Below are positions 7,423 to 39,447 of a stretch of DNA of 64,000 nt, in pieces; position 1 is the stretch's first letter; every line of letters begins with the position of its first letter. Position numbers and translations under genes: made by a program. The notes under the pieces were generated by a model that had not been told where the DNA came from, made no database searches, and saw only the letters and a list, made by a program, of their open reading frames with translations. This DNA is from Nakamurella flava (GTDB lineage Bacteria; Actinomycetota; Actinomycetes; Mycobacteriales; Nakamurellaceae). The DNA lies in contig NZ_SZZH01000002.1 of assembly GCF_005298075.1 (NCBI RefSeq), forward strand, positions 62,001 through 126,000. The letters run 5' to 3'.

Positions 7423-10400
7423 TCAGCTGTGGCGGGCCTGGCTGCGCCGCGGCTTGGCGTCCGCCGGCAGCGCCGCGGGCGAGGTGTTGGCGGCCGGCCG
7501 CGGCTCGCTGGGGTGACGGTCGCCGTCCCGGGTCGCGCCTCCCTGATCGGCCCCGTCCGCCGCCTCGACCGGCCGCTCCACCCCGCCGGGAACGACACAC
7601 GGCGGCGCCGTACTGGTCGTCGGGGTCGTCGTCGTCGGTATGGCCGTCGTCGGCGAGGTGGCCGTCGTCGGCGAGGTGGCCGTCGTCGGGGTCGCCGCCG
7701 TACTGGTGGACGACACCGGTCCGGTCGTGGTCGGCGCGCCGAGGACGGCGGTCGGGCACACCAGCGGCTCGGCAGTCGCCGCCGACGGAGTGGTCGTTGT
7801 CGGGGCCGCGCTGCTGGACTGGGCCGGCCTGCTGCCGACCGACGTGGTTGGCGCCGGAACGGACGACGCGGTCGTCGGAGTCGAGGCGCTGGACGGCGCG
7901 GCCGCACTGGACGAGGCAGCGCTGCTCGACGACGTGGCACTGCTGGCCGACGTGGCACTGCCGGACGACGTGGCACTGCCGGACGACGACGCGGTGGCCG
8001 ACCCCGTCGTGTGGGGCGCGGTAGTCACCGGCGTGGATGCCTGCGGTGCCGCGCTCGCGCCGGTGGTCGACTCGGCCGCAGACGACGGGCCCGTCGGGGT
8101 CGGCGCACTCGTCGGGGTCGAGGTGACGGAGGAGGCCGCTTCCGTAGCCTCCCGGGTGGAAGCCGCGGCCGAGCTGGACGCGACAGTCGTCGAGGGCGTC
8201 ACGTCCACGCTGGTCGTGACCTCGGGGGCCGGGTCGGGCGCGGTGACCGGTGCCGGGAACGGCCGCGGAGTGACCGCCGGCGAGGCCGCGCCGGTGGTCG
8301 GATAGGGCACCGGGACGATGTGCGGGGTCCAGACGAGAGAGGCGCCGACGGCCGCGCCGCGGTCACCCGCGGGCCGCGTAGTCGAGCCGGTCACGGTGCT
8401 ACCGCCGGTGGCGGAGTTCACGGCGTCGGAGACGGCCCGTCCGGCGGCGGCCAGACCGGCCGCCAGGTCGGAACCGGCCGCGCTGCCCGACGGGGCGCTC
8501 GGGCTCGCGCTGTCGGTGATCGGAGCCCCGGAGGACGGTCCGTCCCAGAACCGGTAGAGCCGGGCGTCGACGTCGGTCCGGGTCAGCGGGACGATGTGCA
8601 CCGGGGTGCCGACCCAGGACGCCTCGAGGATGTAGGGCCGTCCGCCGAACGTGCCGAGGTAGACGGCCACGTGGCCGGGGAAGCCGACGACGTCACCGGG
8701 CTGGGCCTCCGCCCAGCTGACGGTGCGGGCGGTCGCCCGCTGCGAGCCGGAGTCACCGGGGATGGTGTAGCCGGCCTGGCCGAGCACGTAGGCGGTGAGG
8801 CCGGAGCAGTCGAAGCCGATGGCCGGGCCGCAGCTGTTGAACTGTCCCCCGCCGCGCTGGCAGCCGTTGTTGGCGCCGGCACCCGATCCGCCGCCGCCCC
8901 ACACGTAGGGCAGGCCCAGGGAGGCGAACCCGGCGGCCAGGCCCTTGGCGACCTGCTCGTTGGGGGCGGTGATGGTCTGTCCGGCCAGCGCGGCCGAGAC
9001 GTAGGGGCTGCGCGGAATGGTCAGGGTGGGGCCGGTGGCCAGGGTGGCGGAGGTGGTGCCACCGCCGGTCGAGGAGAAGTAGGTGCGGAACAGGTAGAAG
9101 AAGTTGCGGTTGCCGTAGGCCGAGCACTTGTCGCCCGTGCCCGGGTAAGCGGCCAGCGCGGCGGCGTTCGGCTGGTACGGCGTGTAGTTGTACAGCGAGG
9201 CGGTGGCGGTGTTCTTGATCGTCACCGGGGCGGCACCACAGCCGGATTCGGCGACGTTCCACAGGATGTCGACGGTCTGTCCGGCCCGGTAGTTGTACTT
9301 GGCCGGGTCGACCTTGTAGCGGGCCCACTGCTTGGCCATGCCGTAGCCCTGGTTGAAGAACCCGGCGTGCTCGGGGTCGCAGTTGGCCGTCCCGCCGGGC
9401 CCGGTGTCGGGGCAGTGCCAGCCCCAGGCGGCGTCGTAGGTGCTGGCGTCGACCGTGGTCCGGTCGAGCAGGCTGGACTCCTTCTGCAGGGTGACCAGCA
9501 TGACCTGCGGGTTGATCCCGCAGGCGGTGGAGACCTTCGCGATGACGGCGGCCGCGTCCTCGTTCGCCGCCCCGGCGTAGGCGGTGCAGTACTGGTCGGC
9601 CGGCTGGTCGGTGGTGGTGACCCGCAGGTTCTTCAGACACCAGGCGCCGGTGCAGTTCTCGCCCTGCCGGGCGATGAAGGCCCGGATGGCGTCGACGGTC
9701 ATCGCGCCGGTGTTGTAGAAGACCTCGTCGCTGACGATGTTGCCCGGGTCGAAGACGGACCCGGTGTCGGTGGCCGCCGAGGTCGCCGCGGGGATGCAGA
9801 CGGCGTCGTCCTGCTGGAGGGTCACCTTGTCGCCGAGTTCGCGCACCATCGCTGCGGCCATGCCCTCGTAGGGCTCGAACCGGTAGCCGGTGGTGGTGAG
9901 CTGGACGAGGTCGCCGATCTCCCAGTCGGTGCGGGTGTCGGTGTCGTAGCCGGGGTCGACGGCGAGCAGCCGCTGGTAGAACATCCAGGCGGCGCCGGCG
10001 GGGTCGGTGCGCTGGTACTCGGTGTATTCGACCGGGTTCTGCTGGAACAGGCCCAGCCAGTCGTTGTTGACGGCGTCCGAGCGCAGGCTGGACTGCTGGG
10101 CGGCGACGGCGATCCCGACGCGGATACCGCGGTCGGTGATACCCATCTGCCGGCCGACCGCCGTGATGGTGGCCGCGTTGCGGAGCTGCTCGCCGTCGAC
10201 GGCGATCCGGTCGAAGACCCCGCCGTCCGCGGCGTCGTCGGGCAGGCCCTGCAGGTTGCCCAGCGGGGCGGGCGTGCCGGTGCCCGCCGCAGTGACGGCC
10301 TCCTGGCCGGGGATGCAGACGGGGAGCTCGGCGGCGCCGACGGTGCCGGCTCCCGTGACCATTCCGGCGCTGAAGAGCCCGGCCGACACTGCGAGCACCG

Positions 10401-11202: not shown

Positions 11203-12557
11203 CGGCCGGCCTGCAGGATGCGTCCGGGCGTGGTTCGGGCCCGGTCGACGTGTCCGCCCAGGAACCAGCCGGCCTGCTCGCGGCGGACGCTGTCCGATCG
11301 GACGGCGGCGACGGCCCGCGTGTAGCTGTCGATGAGTCCGTCCACGGTGACCTCCCAGGAGAACCGGGCCGCGTGCCGGGCGGCGGCCTCGCCCATCCGG
11401 GCGGCCAGGGCCGGGTCGAGGGCGACCCGGGCCAGGGCGGTCGCCCAGTCCGCGGGATCGTGCCCGTCGACGAGAACGCCACTGATCTCGCCGGCCACCG
11501 CCGTCGTCAGCCCGCCCACCGCGGCGGCGACCACCGGGGTGCCGGTCGCCTGGGCCTCCAGGGCGACGAGCCCGAACGACTCGTTGTGGCTGGGGACGGC
11601 GACGAGGTCGGCGGCGGTGAAGACCCGGGCCAGCTGCGCCGCGGGGACGGGGGGCCGGACGTCGACGTGGTCGCGGACACCCAGCTGCTCGGCGAGGTCG
11701 ACCAGCCAGTTGTTCTCCGTGGAGCCGCCGGACCGGCCGCCGACCACGACGAGCCGCCACGGCTCGTCGGGGTGCCGGGCGAGCAGGACGGCGAGGGCGG
11801 AGACCAGGACGTCGGGGGCCTTGAGCGGTTGCACCCGGCCGGCGAAGACGACGATGCGGTCGTCGGCGGGTAGCCCGAGCTCCGACCGGGCCGCGGCGCG
11901 GGCGGCTCGTCGGTCCGGGGCGGGACGGAAGACGTCGAGGTCGACGCCGGGCGGCACGACGTCCACCCGCGCCGGGTCGGCCCGGTAGAGGTCGACCAGT
12001 TCGCGGGCCTCGGCGGAGGTGTTGGCCACCAGTCGGTCGGCCTCGGCCACGACCTGTTCCTCGCCGAGCAGCCGACCCCGCGGTTCAGGACGGTCGCCCT
12101 GGGCCAGGGCGGCGTTCTTCACCTTGGCCAGGGTGTGGGCGGTGAAGACCAGGGGCACGCCCCAGCGGTCTTTCGCCAGGTACCCGACCTGACCGGACAG
12201 CCAGTAGTGGGCGTGCAGCAGGTCGTAGTGGCCGGGGTCGCGGCGGGCTTCCGCGCGGAGCACGCCGGCGGTGAAGGAGCACAGCTCGCCGGGCAGCTGG
12301 TCCTTGTCCAGGCCCCCGAACGGGCCGGCCACGATGTGCCGGACCAGCACGCCGGGGGCGACCTCGGTGACCGGTTCCTGGTGGGCGGACGTGGCCCGGG
12401 TGAACACCTCGACCTCGATGCCGCGGGCGGCGAGCCGCCGGGTGGTCTGGTCGATGTAGACGTTCATGCCTCCCGCGTCACCGGTGCCCGGCTGGGCCAG
12501 CGGCGACGTGTGCAGCGAGATGGTGGCGATCCGGCGGAGCGCGGGGGCAGTGTCCAT
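11199..12557 (-). CDS. mshA: D-inositol-3-phosphate glycosyltransferase (mycothiol synthesis)
   Basis: First committed enzyme of mycothiol biosynthesis: transfers GlcNAc from UDP-GlcNAc to 1L-myo-inositol 1-phosphate. The 452 residues form a GT-B glycosyltransferase family 4 protein. The N-terminal acceptor-domain motif is [12 protein letters not shown]. Donor-domain features are [28 protein letters not shown] and the E-x7-E region of the family in [22 protein letters not shown]. The start ATG at 12557 gives [19 protein letters not shown], as expected for MshA. The YbjN gene follows with a 4-base overlap. Mycothiol is confined to actinobacteria, which supports the placement of the organism. 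Confidence 0.95.
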
Positions 12558-15515: not shown

Positions 15516-15590
15516 TCGTCACGGGCCGTCGTGCCCTCTGAGATCCGGGTGCTGCTGTGGCGCCGCCCCCCTCCGCAGCGAGAGGGTGGG

Positions 15591-16190
15591 GTGTCACGTT
15601 CAGCGCGGTCCGGACATGTCACGAGTGTGGATGTCGTGGATGGTCGTCAACGCTTCCGGGCGTTGTACGAGGAGCACTGGCAGGCGTTGTTCGGTTTCGC
15701 CTGCCGCCGGGCCGAGACGGTAGAAGACGCCGCCGATGTGACGTCCGAGGTGTTCCTGGTGGCGTGGCGTCGGATCGCTGAGGTCCCCCTAGGGCAACAG
15801 GCCCGATTGTGGCTGTTCGGGGTGGCCCGGTTGACGATGAGCAACCACCTTCGCGGAGAGCGTCGTCGTGAACGGTTGGGGGATGCGCTGCTGTCGGCCG
15901 TCCGTGAGAACCACGGCGATGCGGACCGTTGGTTCGATCGCGACGAGTCCGCCGAACGGATCCGCACAGCCCTGGGGAAGCTCAGCGAAGCCGATCGCGA
16001 AGTGATCTGCCTGGTGGCCTGGGAGGACCTCACTCCCGGGCAGGCCGCACACGTCCTCGGGATCAACGCGACCGCGGCCCGCACCCGCCTCTCCCGGGCC
16101 CGCCGGCGCCTGAAGGCTCTGTTGGATCAGCAATCCCCGGTCGAGCTGAGTCGGTTGGCCATCGGTTCGCCATGGAGGGGGCAATCGTGA
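15591..16190 (+). CDS. ECF-type RNA polymerase sigma factor (sigma-70 family)
   Basis: About 199 residues with the two ECF domains: region 2 (RFRALYEEHWQALFGFACRR through VFLVAWRRIAEVP and ARLWLFGVARLTMSNHLRGERRR) and region 4 (ALGKLSEADREVICLVAWEDLTPGQAAHVLGINATAARTRLSRARRRL). It redirects RNA polymerase to a stress or envelope regulon. The start is uncertain: the GTG at 15591 has a GAGGG-like site; GTGs at 15531 and 15636 are alternatives. The stop TGA overlaps the GTG of the next gene (GTGA), the typical arrangement with a membrane-bound anti-sigma partner. Confidence 0.85.
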   Translation: MSRSARSGHVTSVDVVDGRQRFRALYEEHWQALFGFACRRAETVEDAADVTSEVFLVAWRRIAEVPLGQQARLWLFGVARLTMSNHLRGERRRERLGDALLSAVRENHGDADRWFDRDESAERIRTALGKLSEADREVICLVAWEDLTPGQAAHVLGINATAARTRLSRARRRLKALLDQQSPVELSRLAIGSPWRGQS

Positions 16191-23678: not shown

Positions 23679-25136
23679 TTAGGGGAAACGCCAGGCGACA
23701 AGCGCTGGCCCGACCGCCGCGTACACCAGTGATCCGCTGATGACGGCAGCAGAGACCCGCGAGATTGATGGAATGCAGTGCGTTTCGGTCCAGTGCTGGT
23801 TCCAGGTTCGAAGGGTGTAGTCCGCACCCGCGGTGACGATGGCGTTCTGGCCGCCACGCGATCTAATCGCGATCGCGTTGATTCGGCGGTGGTGGCCGGT
23901 GAGGGTGCCGACGGGTCGGCCGTCGATGTCCCAGATCCGTGCGGTGGCGTCTTCGCTGCCGGTGACGATGACGTCCTGGCCACCGACCGGTCCGATCGCG
24001 ACCGCAGTGATCCGGCCGCGGTGGCCGGTGAAGGGGGTGTCCGCGGGGTGGCCGTCGATGTCCCAGATCCGTGCGCTGCCGTCGGCGCTGCCGGTGACGA
24101 TGACGTCCTGGCCGCCCAGCGATCCAATCGCGAGCGCACTGATCCGGCGGTAGTGGCCGGTGAGCGGGGCGCGCAGGGGCCGGCCGTCGAGGCTCCAGAT
24201 CCGTGCGGTGCCGTCTTCGCTGCCGGTGACGATGACGTCCTGGCCGCCCAGCGATCCAGTCGCTACCGCACTGATCTGGCGGTCATGTCCGGTGAGGATG
24301 CCGACGAGTTGGCCGTCGATGTTCCAGATCCGTGCGGTGCCGTCGGCGCTGCCGGTGACGATGACGTCCTGGCCGCCCAGCGATCCAATGGTGACCGCAG
24401 TAATCCGGCGGTGGAGGTCGGTGAGGATGCCGACGAGCTGGCCGTCGATTTTCCAGATCCGTACGGTGCCGTCGGCGTCGCCGGTGACGATGACGTCCTG
24501 GCCGCCCAACGGCCCAGTCGCGAGCGCACTGATCCGGCCGTGGTGGCCGGTGACAGGGGTGTCCGCGGGGTGGCCGTCGATGTTCCAGATCCGTGCGGTG
24601 CCGTCGGCGCTGCCGGTGATGATGACGTCCTGGCCGCTCAACGATCCAACGGCGGCGGTCAAGATCGGCCCGTCGTGGCCGGTGAGCGGGGCGCGCACTG
24701 GTTGGCCGTCGATGTTCCAGATCCGTGCGGTGCCGTCGGCGTCGCCGGTGACGATGACGTCCTGGCCGCCCAGCGATCCAATGGTGACCGCAGTAATCCG
24801 GCGGTGGAGGTCGGTGAGGATGCCGACGAGCTGGCCGTCGATTTTCCAGATCCGTGCGGTGCCGTCGGCGTCGCCGGTGATGATGACGTCCTGGCCGCCA
24901 ATCGCGATAGCGTTGATTCGGCGGTGGTGATCGGTGAGGATGCCGACGAGCTGGCCGTCGATGTCCCAGATCCGTGCGGTGCCGTCTTCGCTACCGGTGA
25001 CGATGACGTCCTGGCCGCCGATCGAGCCAATCGCGATAGCGTTGATTCGGCGGTGGTGGCCGGTGAGGATGCCGACGAGCTGGCCGTCGATATCCCAGAT
25101 CCGTGCTGTGCCATCCCAGCCGCCGGTCACAATCAC
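23679..25136 (-). CDS. C-terminal WD40 half of a split STAND ATPase
   Basis: 485 codons of almost pure WD40-type repeats with a 42-44 residue period. The core phrase is IVTGSADGTARIWNIDGQLVG, then a variable stretch ending GGQDV. About ten complete units are present, then a diverged last unit ending ALVAWRFP. It starts in mid-repeat and has no ribosome site of its own; restoring the frame near 25180 joins it to the upstream HTH-NACHT half. Repeats 3 and 6 are identical over about 37 residues. In STAND proteins this domain senses the ligand. Confidence 0.8.
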   Translation of the reverse strand: MIVTGGWDGTARIWDIDGQLVGILTGHHRRINAIAIGSIGGQDVIVTGSEDGTARIWDIDGQLVGILTDHHRRINAIAIGGQDVIITGDADGTARIWKIDGQLVGILTDLHRRITAVTIGSLGGQDVIVTGDADGTARIWNIDGQPVRAPLTGHDGPILTAAVGSLSGQDVIITGSADGTARIWNIDGHPADTPVTGHHGRISALATGPLGGQDVIVTGDADGTVRIWKIDGQLVGILTDLHRRITAVTIGSLGGQDVIVTGSADGTARIWNIDGQLVGILTGHDRQISAVATGSLGGQDVIVTGSEDGTARIWSLDGRPLRAPLTGHYRRISALAIGSLGGQDVIVTGSADGSARIWDIDGHPADTPFTGHRGRITAVAIGPVGGQDVIVTGSEDATARIWDIDGRPVGTLTGHHRRINAIAIRSRGGQNAIVTAGADYTLRTWNQHWTETHCIPSISRVSAAVISGSLVYAAVGPALVAWRFP

Positions 25137-33759: not shown

Positions 33760-34485
33760 TCAGTCGACGGCGGTGGACGGGGCGGCGGGGCGTTCCCGGT
33801 CCTGCCAGGTGCACAGGCAGACCTCGTTGCCTTCGGCGTCGGCCAGTACCCAGAAGGCGCGGGCGTGCGCATCGGAGAGCAGGGTTCCGCCGGCGGCCAC
33901 GGCCGCAGCGATCCGCTCGTCCACGTGGTCGTGGGGCACGTCGACGTCGAGATGGATGCGGTTGCGCTGCCCGCGGGGCGCGTCCATCTGCTGGAACCAC
34001 AGCGCCGGTCCGAGCCCGGTCGGATCGATCAGCCCGCCGTCGACCGGGGAGTCCGTCGGGTCGTCGACGTAGGCCAGGACCGTACGCCAGAACGGCCGTA
34101 CAGCGGGGATGTCGAGCGCGTCGATGGCGATCTCGGTCAGTTGGGCGGCGCTGTCGCCGGTCGGGCCGGGGACGAATCCGGCGTCGGTCAAGGCCGTGGT
34201 GACCGAACGCACCACGGCGAGGTCGGTCTCGGTCAGGCGGCCGGCGCGCCGGTCGACGACCGTCAGCGCCACCCGGTCGTCCCGCAGGTCGATGGTCAGG
34301 CGTCCGGTCGTGTCCGTTGCGGCCCCCGCGGCGACCGCGGCCACCCGCACCGCCTCGTCCAGCGAAGTCACCGGGACGATCGCGCGAACCCGGTTGAGCA
34401 GGTAGCGCCAGCCCAGCGGGGTGACCGCGGCCGACGCAGCCGGACGGGACACGGGCGCAGCTCCGGGTTGGTCGGCGTTCGTCAT
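33760..34485 (-). CDS. Pterin-4a-carbinolamine dehydratase-like/VOC (glyoxalase) fusion protein
   Basis: 241 residues. The N-terminal 110 match the PCD/DCoH fold (LGWRYLLNRVRAIVPVTSLDEAVRVAAVA, then a beta pair and RLTETDLAVVRSVTTALTDAGF). The usual HHP catalytic motif is absent, with TGRLTIDLR at the corresponding place, so dehydratase activity is unlikely. The C-terminal half is a glyoxalase/bleomycin-resistance (VOC) domain with RNRIHLDVDVPHD and LADAEGNEVCLCTW. Similar fusions occur in actinobacteria; the substrate is unknown. It is upstream of the PLP lyase on the same strand. Confidence 0.75.
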   Translation of the reverse strand: MTNADQPGAAPVSRPAASAAVTPLGWRYLLNRVRAIVPVTSLDEAVRVAAVAAGAATDTTGRLTIDLRDDRVALTVVDRRAGRLTETDLAVVRSVTTALTDAGFVPGPTGDSAAQLTEIAIDALDIPAVRPFWRTVLAYVDDPTDSPVDGGLIDPTGLGPALWFQQMDAPRGQRNRIHLDVDVPHDHVDERIAAAVAAGGTLLSDAHARAFWVLADAEGNEVCLCTWQDRERPAAPSTAVD

Positions 34486-34600
34486 GCCGTCCAGGCTGCC
34501 GCAGGCGTGCGGTCGACGCTCCCCGAAGGACCGAATCGTGGGTGACCGGGCTCACAACGTGGTCGGGGAAGGTCCGCAGGAGTGGCATGGTTGTAGCCAG

Positions 34601-34788
34601 CGACGGTCTCCGGTACATGCCCCGGGTACCACCCCTTTTGCCGCTACGTGCGGCCTCGTGCCGAGAGGCGCACTGTCCGGGGATCGTCGCCCTACAGGAC
34701 CGACGGTCTCCCGGTACATGCCCCGGGTACCACCCCTTCGCCGCCGCGAGCGGCCTCGTGCCGAGAGGCGCACTGTCCGGGGATCGTC
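34601..34788. repeat. 88-bp direct tandem repeat, period 100 bp
   Basis: The segment 34601-34688 recurs at 34701-34788 with only a handful of differences. Each copy holds a hairpin-capable stretch (GCGGCCTCGTGCCGAGAGGC) and an inverted GGTAC/GTACC pair. No reading frame is conserved between copies, so it is non-coding. Confidence 0.75.
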
Positions 34789-34806
34789 ACCTGTGAACGT
34801 CAGACA

Positions 34807-34843
34807 GCCGCCCGGTGCCTCCCGCGTCGGGCGGCCTTTCTAT
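34807..34843 (+). terminator. Intrinsic terminator-like hairpin downstream of the tandem repeat
   Basis: GCCGCCCG (34807-34814) pairs with CGGGCGGC (34828-34835) and is followed by CTTTCTATT, a pyrimidine/T-rich tract on the plus strand. Both flanking genes are on the minus strand, so it would end a plus-strand RNA made from the repeat region. Confidence 0.45.
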
Positions 34844-34999
34844 TGCGGCCATGCCGCCCCATGCCTCACAGAGACATGGCGGCTGTCGCGTATCCGGTAC
34901 CACCATGACTTCGCGGCAGCACCATGACGACGCGGCTGTCGCGGACCCCCACGGGTCTTGGGTCCCCTCGTTCCCCCTGAGGCGCACTGCCGCCGCTCC
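34844..34999. other. Non-coding stretch with inverted repeats
   Basis: Contains GCCGCC-CATG/CATGGCGGC inverted segments and repeated ACCATGAC words. No plausible gene was seen. Together with the tandem repeat it makes a 514-base intergenic region. Confidence 0.35.
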
Positions 35000-35671
35000 C
35001 TACTTCGCCGCCCCGGACATCGAGACCCGTCGGATGGCGTCGGCCATCTCGCGTGGTTCGTCGACCCAGATGCGGATGTCGGTGACCTGCGCCGTGCGCC
35101 CGCGGGGCAGCACGACGCACAACGGCTTGGTCAGCGCGAGGTGCAGAGCGGTCCCGCCGTTGTCCACGACGTGCAGGACGTCGTCCTGGCATTGAAGGCT
35201 GGCCATCCGGGGACGACTCTGCCGGTCGACGTGGACCGACTCGATGAGGTCGGCGGGCACGCTCACCTCTGTGCTCAACCCGTTCCGGATGACCACGGCC
35301 GTGCGGCTGACCAGGTGCGGGCGGACGGGGCCGGATCCGAGGAGGTAGCCGAGGACCCAGATCAGGCTGTACACACCCAACGCCAGCAGAACCAGACGGA
35401 CGGGTCCGCTGGGCATCAGCAGGTGAACCACCCCGACTTCGAGAACCAGGACGCCCATCCCGATCCATCGGACCGGGGCCAGCGTCCGGTGGTGCGTGAA
35501 CGGCACCGACCGTTCCGGAACGTCCGGTCGACGCAGGACACCCCTCACGAGTCCCCGCCAGATGCGGCCTTCGAGGCGAACACCGGCCAGGACCGCGGTC
35601 AGGACGACTGCCTGCGACGGCAGAATCGTCACGGGCCGCCACCGTCGCCGGCGATCGAGCCGGCCCCTCAT
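35000..35671 (-). CDS. Membrane protein coupled to a MerR regulator
   Basis: 223 residues with two adjacent membrane helices in the middle (RWIGMGVLVLEVGVVHLLM and LVLLALGVYSLIWVLGYLL). They separate an Arg-rich N-terminal part from a C-terminal cytoplasmic domain of beta strands (RTAVVIRNGLSTEVSVPADLIESVHV), possibly PH-like. No known family is recognised. Its ATG overlaps the merR stop codon (ATGA), so it is translated with the regulator and is likely controlled by it. Confidence 0.65.
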   Translation of the reverse strand: MRGRLDRRRRWRPVTILPSQAVVLTAVLAGVRLEGRIWRGLVRGVLRRPDVPERSVPFTHHRTLAPVRWIGMGVLVLEVGVVHLLMPSGPVRLVLLALGVYSLIWVLGYLLGSGPVRPHLVSRTAVVIRNGLSTEVSVPADLIESVHVDRQSRPRMASLQCQDDVLHVVDNGGTALHLALTKPLCVVLPRGRTAQVTDIRIWVDEPREMADAIRRVSMSGAAK

Positions 35672-38745: not shown

Positions 38746-39447
38746 TCACTCCCACAGGTGCGGACCCAGCGTGCCGTCGACGATGTCGGCGGCGACGTCG
38801 TCGACGGAACGGTCACCGGCGAACGCGTGCCCACGCAGGATGGCCAGGGCGTCGGGCGCGGTCACGTGAAGCGCAGCGACCAGGATGCCGACAGCGACAG
38901 GCACCTGGGCGCGCCGTCCGCCGACGGCAGCGGGCGTGCCGCTTCTCGGGTCGATGACCATCAGGGCGTCGTTGTCGGTGACGGCCTGCCACACCTGGCG
39001 GGCCACCTCCGTCGCGGCTCCCACGTCGACCGCGAGAGCCCCCTGCTCCTGACAGAAGTAGACGTCGAGCACCCCGATGCCGTCGATGGGGATGGCGAAC
39101 ACCGAGCGGAACGGTGTGCGCAACAGGAAGGGTTCGGCGAACCCCGGCCAGAATCGCGAGATGATCAGTCGGCTAGCCATTACCGCCTCACCACCGGCGA
39201 ACGCGTCCAGGCAGGGTCCCTGGCCGGCGGTGAATTGCAGTTGTTCCGCCACCGCAGCTACCTCGTCGCTCGCTCCCCATGGCAGGCGCAGCATCTGGTC
39301 GACGGACAGGCCCACCCCTGCACCGTCGGCCTGGAGAACCTCGGCCGCCGCCCAGGCCACGCGGGCGCCCTCGCCGCCCGGTCCGGCCAGTTCCGGTCTG
39401 TCCCTGGCGCGTAACAACGCTGCCTGGAACTGGTCCGCCACCGTCAC
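38746..39447 (-). CDS. GAF-ANTAR domain protein
   Basis: 233 residues: a GAF sensor domain (about 20-165, with GQGPCLDAFAGGEAV and FRSVFAIPIDGIGVLDVYF) and a C-terminal ANTAR RNA-binding domain (about 180-230, VAVGILVAALHVTAPDALAILRGHAF). ANTAR proteins bind paired hairpins in nascent RNA and cause antitermination. No obvious partner kinase is nearby. It converges with the desaturase gene. Confidence 0.87.
   Translation of the reverse strand: MTVADQFQAALLRARDRPELAGPGGEGARVAWAAAEVLQADGAGVGLSVDQMLRLPWGASDEVAAVAEQLQFTAGQGPCLDAFAGGEAVMASRLIISRFWPGFAEPFLLRTPFRSVFAIPIDGIGVLDVYFCQEQGALAVDVGAATEVARQVWQAVTDNDALMVIDPRSGTPAAVGGRRAQVPVAVGILVAALHVTAPDALAILRGHAFAGDRSVDDVAADIVDGTLGPHLWE

Follow-up and report, generated by a model that had tools for sequence, protein, structure and literature searches.

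A stand-alone, structured small RNA is very probably encoded on the plus strand of the 64,000-nucleotide stretch of Nakamurella flava DNA analysed here (hereafter, the window), where its 87-nt unit is present twice in tandem. Judged from its sequence and that of its relatives, the unit is an actinobacterial RNA and a small RNA gene in its own right rather than a leader, coding sequence or mobile repeat. The best explanation of the whole, namely a tandem small RNA that is driven by an extracytoplasmic function (ECF) sigma factor and would act in trans via a bound core, is given a probability of about 0.5. Few actinobacterial small RNAs have a known role, and this one offers a ready experimental target in laboratory species, being matched by the covariance model R2 in 232 of the 394 sampled genomes of the class (own genome counted) and combining covariation with a SigH-type promoter that recurs and a core that hardly varies.

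Organisation of the tandem locus

The tandem repeat occupies positions 34601-34788 of the window (TRF score 332, period 100) and holds two structured 87-nt units on the plus strand, at 34602-34688 and 34702-34788, whose starts lie 100 nt apart; the 88-nt stretches of both copies are 93% identical. The original prediction of an 88-bp tandem repeat was right as to the unit, which is of about 88 nt, and wrong as to the period of the repeat, which is 100 and not 88. With the covariance models R1 and R2, respectively, unit 1 scores 107.6 and 99.9 bits and unit 2 scores 99 and 90.8 bits, values to be read as those of sequences that were themselves used to build both models. The two units differ by one inserted C in the stem P1, by a missing T and a T/C substitution in the linker that leads to P2, and by three changes in the P2 loop. 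Because of the spacing of 100 and these insertions and deletions, a shared reading frame is excluded, as the prediction that the copies keep none had it. A coding region was also rejected across the family, as the unit varies in length from 77 to 91 nt, not in threes. Both neighbouring genes, a glyoxalase-like ORF (33760-34485) and an ORF of 223 amino acids (35000-35671), do lie on the minus strand, as first described.

Read along the plus strand from 34567 to 34845, the locus consists of GGAA, 19 nt, GTT, 9 nt, unit 1, a 13-nt spacer (34689-34701), unit 2, a terminator-like hairpin and a T-rich tail. The hairpin (34807-34835) and the T-rich tail CTTTCTATTG together span 34807-34845, with two overlapping terminator sites where 0.2 are expected from shuffled sequences and a fold z-score of -2.9; the hairpin expected to end a plus-strand transcript was thus found on that strand. 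Across the family, a terminator-like motif is present within 120 nt downstream in 35 of 101 members (background, 12 of 720). In the window, the promoter motif precedes copy 1 only, unit 2 being one of the 15 of 101 matches with neither of the promoter types described below, and the terminator follows copy 2 only. With a promoter motif at copy 1 and a terminator-like hairpin at copy 2, the locus probably yields a single transcript of about 240 nt that carries both units. It would start at or just before 34602 from the SigH/SigR-type ECF promoter, run through the two complete 87-nt units and end at the terminator near 34840, and its tandem form would provide two binding sites per transcript. In two other close pairs (L188 and L288) the starts of the copies are separated by 182 and 168 nt; because each of these copies has its own promoter motif of one or other type, a single double-unit transcript has so far been seen, among the pairs compared, only here.

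The small structured tandem RNA of about 200 bases that was originally proposed is supported by the covariation in relatives, the preference for G-U over A-C changes in the stems, the recurring type of promoter motif before copy 1 and the terminator-like hairpin after copy 2, in the form of a two-unit plus-strand RNA of about 200-240 nt whose expression we infer. Units 1 and 2 fold better than shuffled sequences on the plus strand (z -3.3 and -2.3) and on the minus strand (z -2.8 and -2.3), and so does the full 246 nt (z -4.4 on plus, -3.1 on minus); because both strands do so, the strand is not set by folding energy alone. When the whole transcript is folded as one strand, copy 1 is predicted to pair with copy 2, which would hide the units unless folding occurs during transcription. 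Two 19-nt direct repeats, 79% alike, lie at 34895-34932, between the terminator and the ORF at 35000.

Secondary structure and proposed mode of action

In each unit, a long and variable stem, P1, closes a three-way junction composed of a C-rich strand, the hairpin P2 and the hairpin P3, the latter with a GNRA loop. In unit 1, the 5′ strand of P1 (34602-34613) pairs with its 3′ strand (34677-34688), the C-rich junction strand CATGCCCCGGGTACCACCCC lies at 34616-34635, P2 at 34640-34654 and P3, with a GAGA loop, at 34659-34670; P2 was defined from an alignment-based fold and the covariation table of alignment A9, and the 3′ strand of P1 from A9 covariation. The core of the family reads CCCCGGG...GCCGNGAGGC. 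Among 101 members, the CCC and GG of the junction strand are nearly invariant, the P3 loop is GAGA in 76, GTGA in 14 and GCGA in 8, and the commonest letters of the P2 loop are T/A/C/G/A.

These features were assessed on A9, which comprises 101 matches (100 distinct, from 98 sources) obtained with BLAST and covariance models, and none by the core pattern; its effective number is 64.5 at 85% identity, and related sequences inflate all counts taken from it. Locus duplicates, 80 pattern-found loci and eight hits (L052, L181, L182, L185-L187, L189 and L198) were left out of it, a spurious match of 20.7 bits (L014, 1584-1619) was removed by a stricter limit, and alignment A8, found by a pattern in which some core positions are preset, was excluded from the counts of core conservation. 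The MAFFT alignments A1 and A2 misaligned P1, and RNAalifold on A2 gave only P2 and P3. Model R1 was built from 7 sequences with P1 aligned and the structure set by hand, and the other sequences were re-aligned to it.

In A9, 99.1% of the cells are paired and 14 of the 21 pairs show double changes. The double-change cells (405 versus 117 in shuffles) and the covariation score (0.545 versus 0.152) are reached by none of 500 shuffles; the tally of doubly changed pairs is equalled by 47 of 500 and is a weak measure alone. Of all column pairs in the alignment, the 13 that covary best belong without exception to the model, and no extra helix or pseudoknot beyond P1-P3 stands out in the A9 covariation. 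When the partners are slid by 1-3 columns the paired cells fall to 27-48%, a control that addresses only in part the lean of alignments A5-A9 towards the structure given by hand. G-U or U-G combinations fill 132 cells and only 19 are unpaired; because the opposite strand would give A-C mismatches in their place, the transcribed strand is the plus strand. Covariance models, suggested with the original prediction, were built, and the covariation in relatives supports a structured plus-strand RNA.

The variation is distributed very unevenly over the unit. All 12 pairs of P1 vary on both sides in the 100 distinct rows, with compensatory changes in 12 of 12, while only two of the nine pairs of P2 and P3 vary in more than one of 100 rows, namely one P2 pair (C-G 57, U-A 41) and one P3 pair with a C-G/U-G change. 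Because P1 covaries freely and the core, including its stems, is nearly fixed, these data suggest that a conserved partner recognises the shape of the core. The near-invariant core would let a conserved protein or ribonucleoprotein bind, and the RNA would act in trans as a decoy or an effector.

The same stand-alone RNA might instead act by base pairing of its C-rich strand (CCCC, CCACCCC) with G-rich ribosome-binding sites, a possibility placed clearly below even odds. The C-rich stretches are partly available for it: in a sample of 119 sequences that includes pattern-found members, the mean unpaired fraction is 0.73 for CCAC (in the 84 of 119 sequences where it was located) and 0.51 for CCCC (in 119). 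The 6C RNA exerts its regulation by base pairing. It is a class-wide actinobacterial small RNA with C-rich loops that regulates genes of M. tuberculosis, according to the partial text of PMC8388888. Against base pairing, the sequences of P2 and P3 hardly vary even in the stems, which is unneeded for pairing alone, the conserved CCCGGG is self-complementary with its GGG mostly paired (0.26 unpaired), and no site of the own genome lies within 1 mismatch of the 16-nt complement except the RNA itself. Complement sites with up to 3 mismatches number 277, against 152 for a backward-pattern control that is crude, an excess that could favour pairing. Scanned against Rfam, 13 complement-site loci and the sigH locus gave no family at gathering score. 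Between the two mechanisms, recognition of a bound core is placed only slightly ahead of base pairing.

Promoter motifs and sigma factors

The putative promoter before copy 1 is of the SigH/SigR-type ECF class, with a -35-like GGAAG (34567-34571) and, at N19 spacing, a -10-like GTT followed by G (34590-34592), 9 nt before P1. The sigma-H consensus of C. glutamicum is GGAA(T/C) and GTT in the partial text of PMC6338062; the fifth base of the -35-like element in the window, G, is off GGAA(T/C). No sigma-70-type promoter was found in 34300-35200. A GGAA-N18-20-GTT motif ending 5-13 nt before P1 is present in 67 of 101 members, compared with 5 of 3600 positions drawn at random from the longer loci, and its commonest spacing is N19 (51 members), as before copy 1 in the window. 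The sigma-A-like -10 element TANNNT lies 4-10 nt before P1 in 37 of the 101 (background, 23 of 3600). Taken together, 86 members have at least one promoter type, 19 of them TANNNT only, and 15 have neither. An earlier and looser count gave the ECF motif within 60 nt in 76 of 126 (background, 115 of 23,749).

The ECF motif is also found in 37 of the 80 named members detected by pattern, including Mycobacteriales, Nakamurella and Microbacterium. The other 43 have a rightly placed TANNNT in 22 cases, one of the 43 having only 6 nt of upstream sequence, and many of these ECF-less members are relatives of Arthrobacter, Curtobacterium, Leifsonia and Cellulomonas. The stricter motif GGAAY-N17/18-GTTG is absent at the RNA locus and has four matches elsewhere in the window, at 9087, 10044, 21046 and 29159 of the plus strand (0.83 expected; 0 of 100 shuffles with as many).

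The own genome encodes a SigH_actino gene (TIGR02947, 335 bits, above the cut-off). Upstream of it, in a scan of four sigma-factor loci that gave two further matches at other places, GGAAT and GTTG stand at the same 19-nt spacing as in the RNA promoter, and the ORF after the gene has, by eye, the look of a zinc anti-sigma factor. Control of the RNA by a SigH-type factor in this genome is considered probable. Factors of the SigH/SigR type are released under thiol, oxidative or heat stress, and SigH released in this manner would raise the level of the RNA. The thiol-stress regulon would thereby gain an RNA layer. A broader proposal, in which a so far undescribed, class-wide actinobacterial RNA family with a protein- or RNP-bound, near-invariant three-way-junction core would supply the RNA part of the SigH/SigR response to thiol stress in Mycobacteriales and related groups, doubled here in Nakamurella into a transcript with two sites, is tentative and rather unlikely to hold in its full extent. 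Elsewhere in the window, an ORF at 15531-16190 (plus strand) matches a SigH model weakly (27.9 bits) and resembles an ECF-type sigma factor by eye.

Distribution, gene neighbourhood and known RNAs

As an alternative, the original prediction had considered a mobile palindromic repeat, and had suggested a search of the genome for additional copies. BLAST found none beyond the two in the 4.84-Mb genome, and model R1 found the same two plus one match of 22.8 bits (E 0.29) that is taken as chance. In the order, R1 matches 122 of 397 genomes (own counted), 104 with exactly one match and 18 with two or more. The repeated hairpin unit and the existence of relatives on plasmids would suit a dispersed mobile repeat, but such an element is highly improbable given only two copies in this genome, a single one in 104 of the 122 matching genomes of the order and the recurring promoter before the RNA, and the alternative was not borne out.

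A BLAST search with the 261-nt region gave matches in 26 of 61 genomes (own counted). In a sample of the phylum, R2 matched 19 of 246 genomes: 18 belong to the class, and the remaining one, from outside the class, scores 34 bits. The 39 plasmid records that match by BLAST, out of 72,556, all come from Rhodococcus or Gordonia, and none of the 20 listed has an annotated feature at the matching stretch; a search of 50,697 phage records with the RNA region gave no match. A fixed-pattern search detected at least 118 stretches in named genomes, and the 80 matches listed include Microbacterium, Arthrobacter, Rothia, Kocuria, Nocardioides, Tessaracoccus, Geodermatophilus, Nocardia, Gordonia, Rhodococcus, Williamsia, Mycolicibacterium and Nakamurella leprariae. 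A similar pattern in a viral collection found one 13.5-kb contig (L292), with the RNA at 12476-12524, near the contig end, which may be host or plasmid DNA.

The neighbouring genes were compared in 94 loci. The commonest neighbour, with no Pfam match in the one member scanned, occurs in 41 loci and is near the RNA 40 times: 28 upstream on the same strand, 11 downstream on the opposite strand and 1 upstream on the opposite strand. DUF47 and phosphate transporter genes also occur near the RNA, as do an ECF sigma factor with an RskA-type anti-sigma factor and, in mycobacterial-type loci, WhiB-like and EVE-domain genes. In two Streptomyces-like loci of the large-genome family f33, the RNA is found between a helicase gene, some 60 nt upstream, and a malic enzyme gene, identified by Pfam on the L200 pair, the L201 pair falling in the same BLAST clusters. 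For seven window proteins, tblastn with a limit of E 0.001 gave no match in 32 relative loci (positive control included), of which 19 span only about 1.5 kb or less on each side. Because the neighbours differ by clade and the commonest one switches side and orientation, no gene is a fixed cis target. The surroundings of the RNA gene seem to change while the RNA keeps its promoter, as would be expected of a trans-acting gene.

A cis-acting leader or riboswitch-like element for the downstream gene is improbable on similar grounds. Aptamers typically combine a fixed core with a variable closing stem such as P1, and a DUF47/PhoU_div gene (Pfam on one member) lies downstream on the same strand in 17 of the 94 loci, all of them in genera that we take to belong to Micrococcales. 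Nevertheless, both window neighbours are antisense, the downstream genes vary by clade, and a terminator-like hairpin follows the RNA here. On plasmids, the RNA of one Rhodococcus locus (L028, 4625-4936) lies about 50 nt after an mIHF-like gene, and at five other plasmid loci a small ORF with no Pfam match lies 50-110 nt upstream of the RNA on the same strand.

Regarding known RNAs, no Rfam 15 family reached its gathering score on any member RNA scanned; the scans covered the region at E up to 5, the whole window and 14 member loci at gathering score, 6 Streptomyces-like loci at E up to 1 and one at E up to 10. Weak hits to Pxr and ar14 (window) and to Thr_leader and ncS011 (Streptomyces-like loci) were rejected, being far below the cut-offs and largely over the terminator hairpin. 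The Rfam model of 6C RNA, which we take to be RF01066, matches none of the scanned loci. Like the RNA described here, 6C is an actinobacterial small RNA with C-rich unpaired stretches beside hairpins, but it has two stem-loops with six or more C each (partial text of PMC8388888), whereas here the C-rich strand is part of a three-way junction and the P3 loop is a GNRA. The proposed binding of a structured small RNA by a conserved protein would be analogous to 6S, Ms1 and CoRP; these, however, are about 160-516 nt long and bind RNA polymerase in the partial text of PMC11077062, and no Rfam family matches the present RNA. CoRP was rejected as a homologue, as it is 516 nt long with close homologues reported only within Corynebacterium (same partial text).

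The Streptomyces member may already be known as scr2952, the window RNA being its Nakamurella relative; this identity, compatible with either mechanism, is quite possible, if somewhat short of an even chance. In its favour, both Streptomyces-like loci have a helicase gene just before the RNA, and SCO2952 is HelD in S. coelicolor (partial text of PMC8655204). The excerpt of PMC8388888 describes scr2952 as an expressed small RNA conserved in over half of the Streptomyces tested, but also as present in Rfam, whereas no Rfam family was found at gathering score on the Streptomyces-like members. The number of scr2952 places it at SCO2952 (HelD), and the likeness is one of location. Another RNA of the S. 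coelicolor host group, scr0792, is about 85 nt long and associated with RNA polymerase; it lies between SCO0791 and SCO0792 (both points from the partial text of PMC11077062), by number near a chromosome arm, and may by this location be distinct from the two Streptomyces-like RNA loci, which sit at 3.47 Mb in a genome of 9.17 Mb and at 4.57 Mb in one of 7.08 Mb. No description of this RNA was found among the matches listed in the literature search, with subscription papers and supplements outside its scope, and the partial texts of PMC3765725, PMC4681348 and PMC3896431, leaving aside their supplementary tables, held nothing linkable to it. Even if the identity were true, the partial texts that mention scr2952 describe neither a family spread through the class, nor the promoter, nor the tandem arrangement.

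Two further features were observed in the window, both on the minus strand. At 38746-39447 a GAF and ANTAR-like protein is encoded, whose ANTAR match (26.8 bits) is just below the cut-off of 27.3. At 23679-25136 there are about ten repeats of 129 bp (43 amino acids), WD40/beta-propeller-like by eye, and this array adjoins an ORF of 718 amino acids with an NTPase-like region and a transposase-like ORF of 433 amino acids (both by eye).
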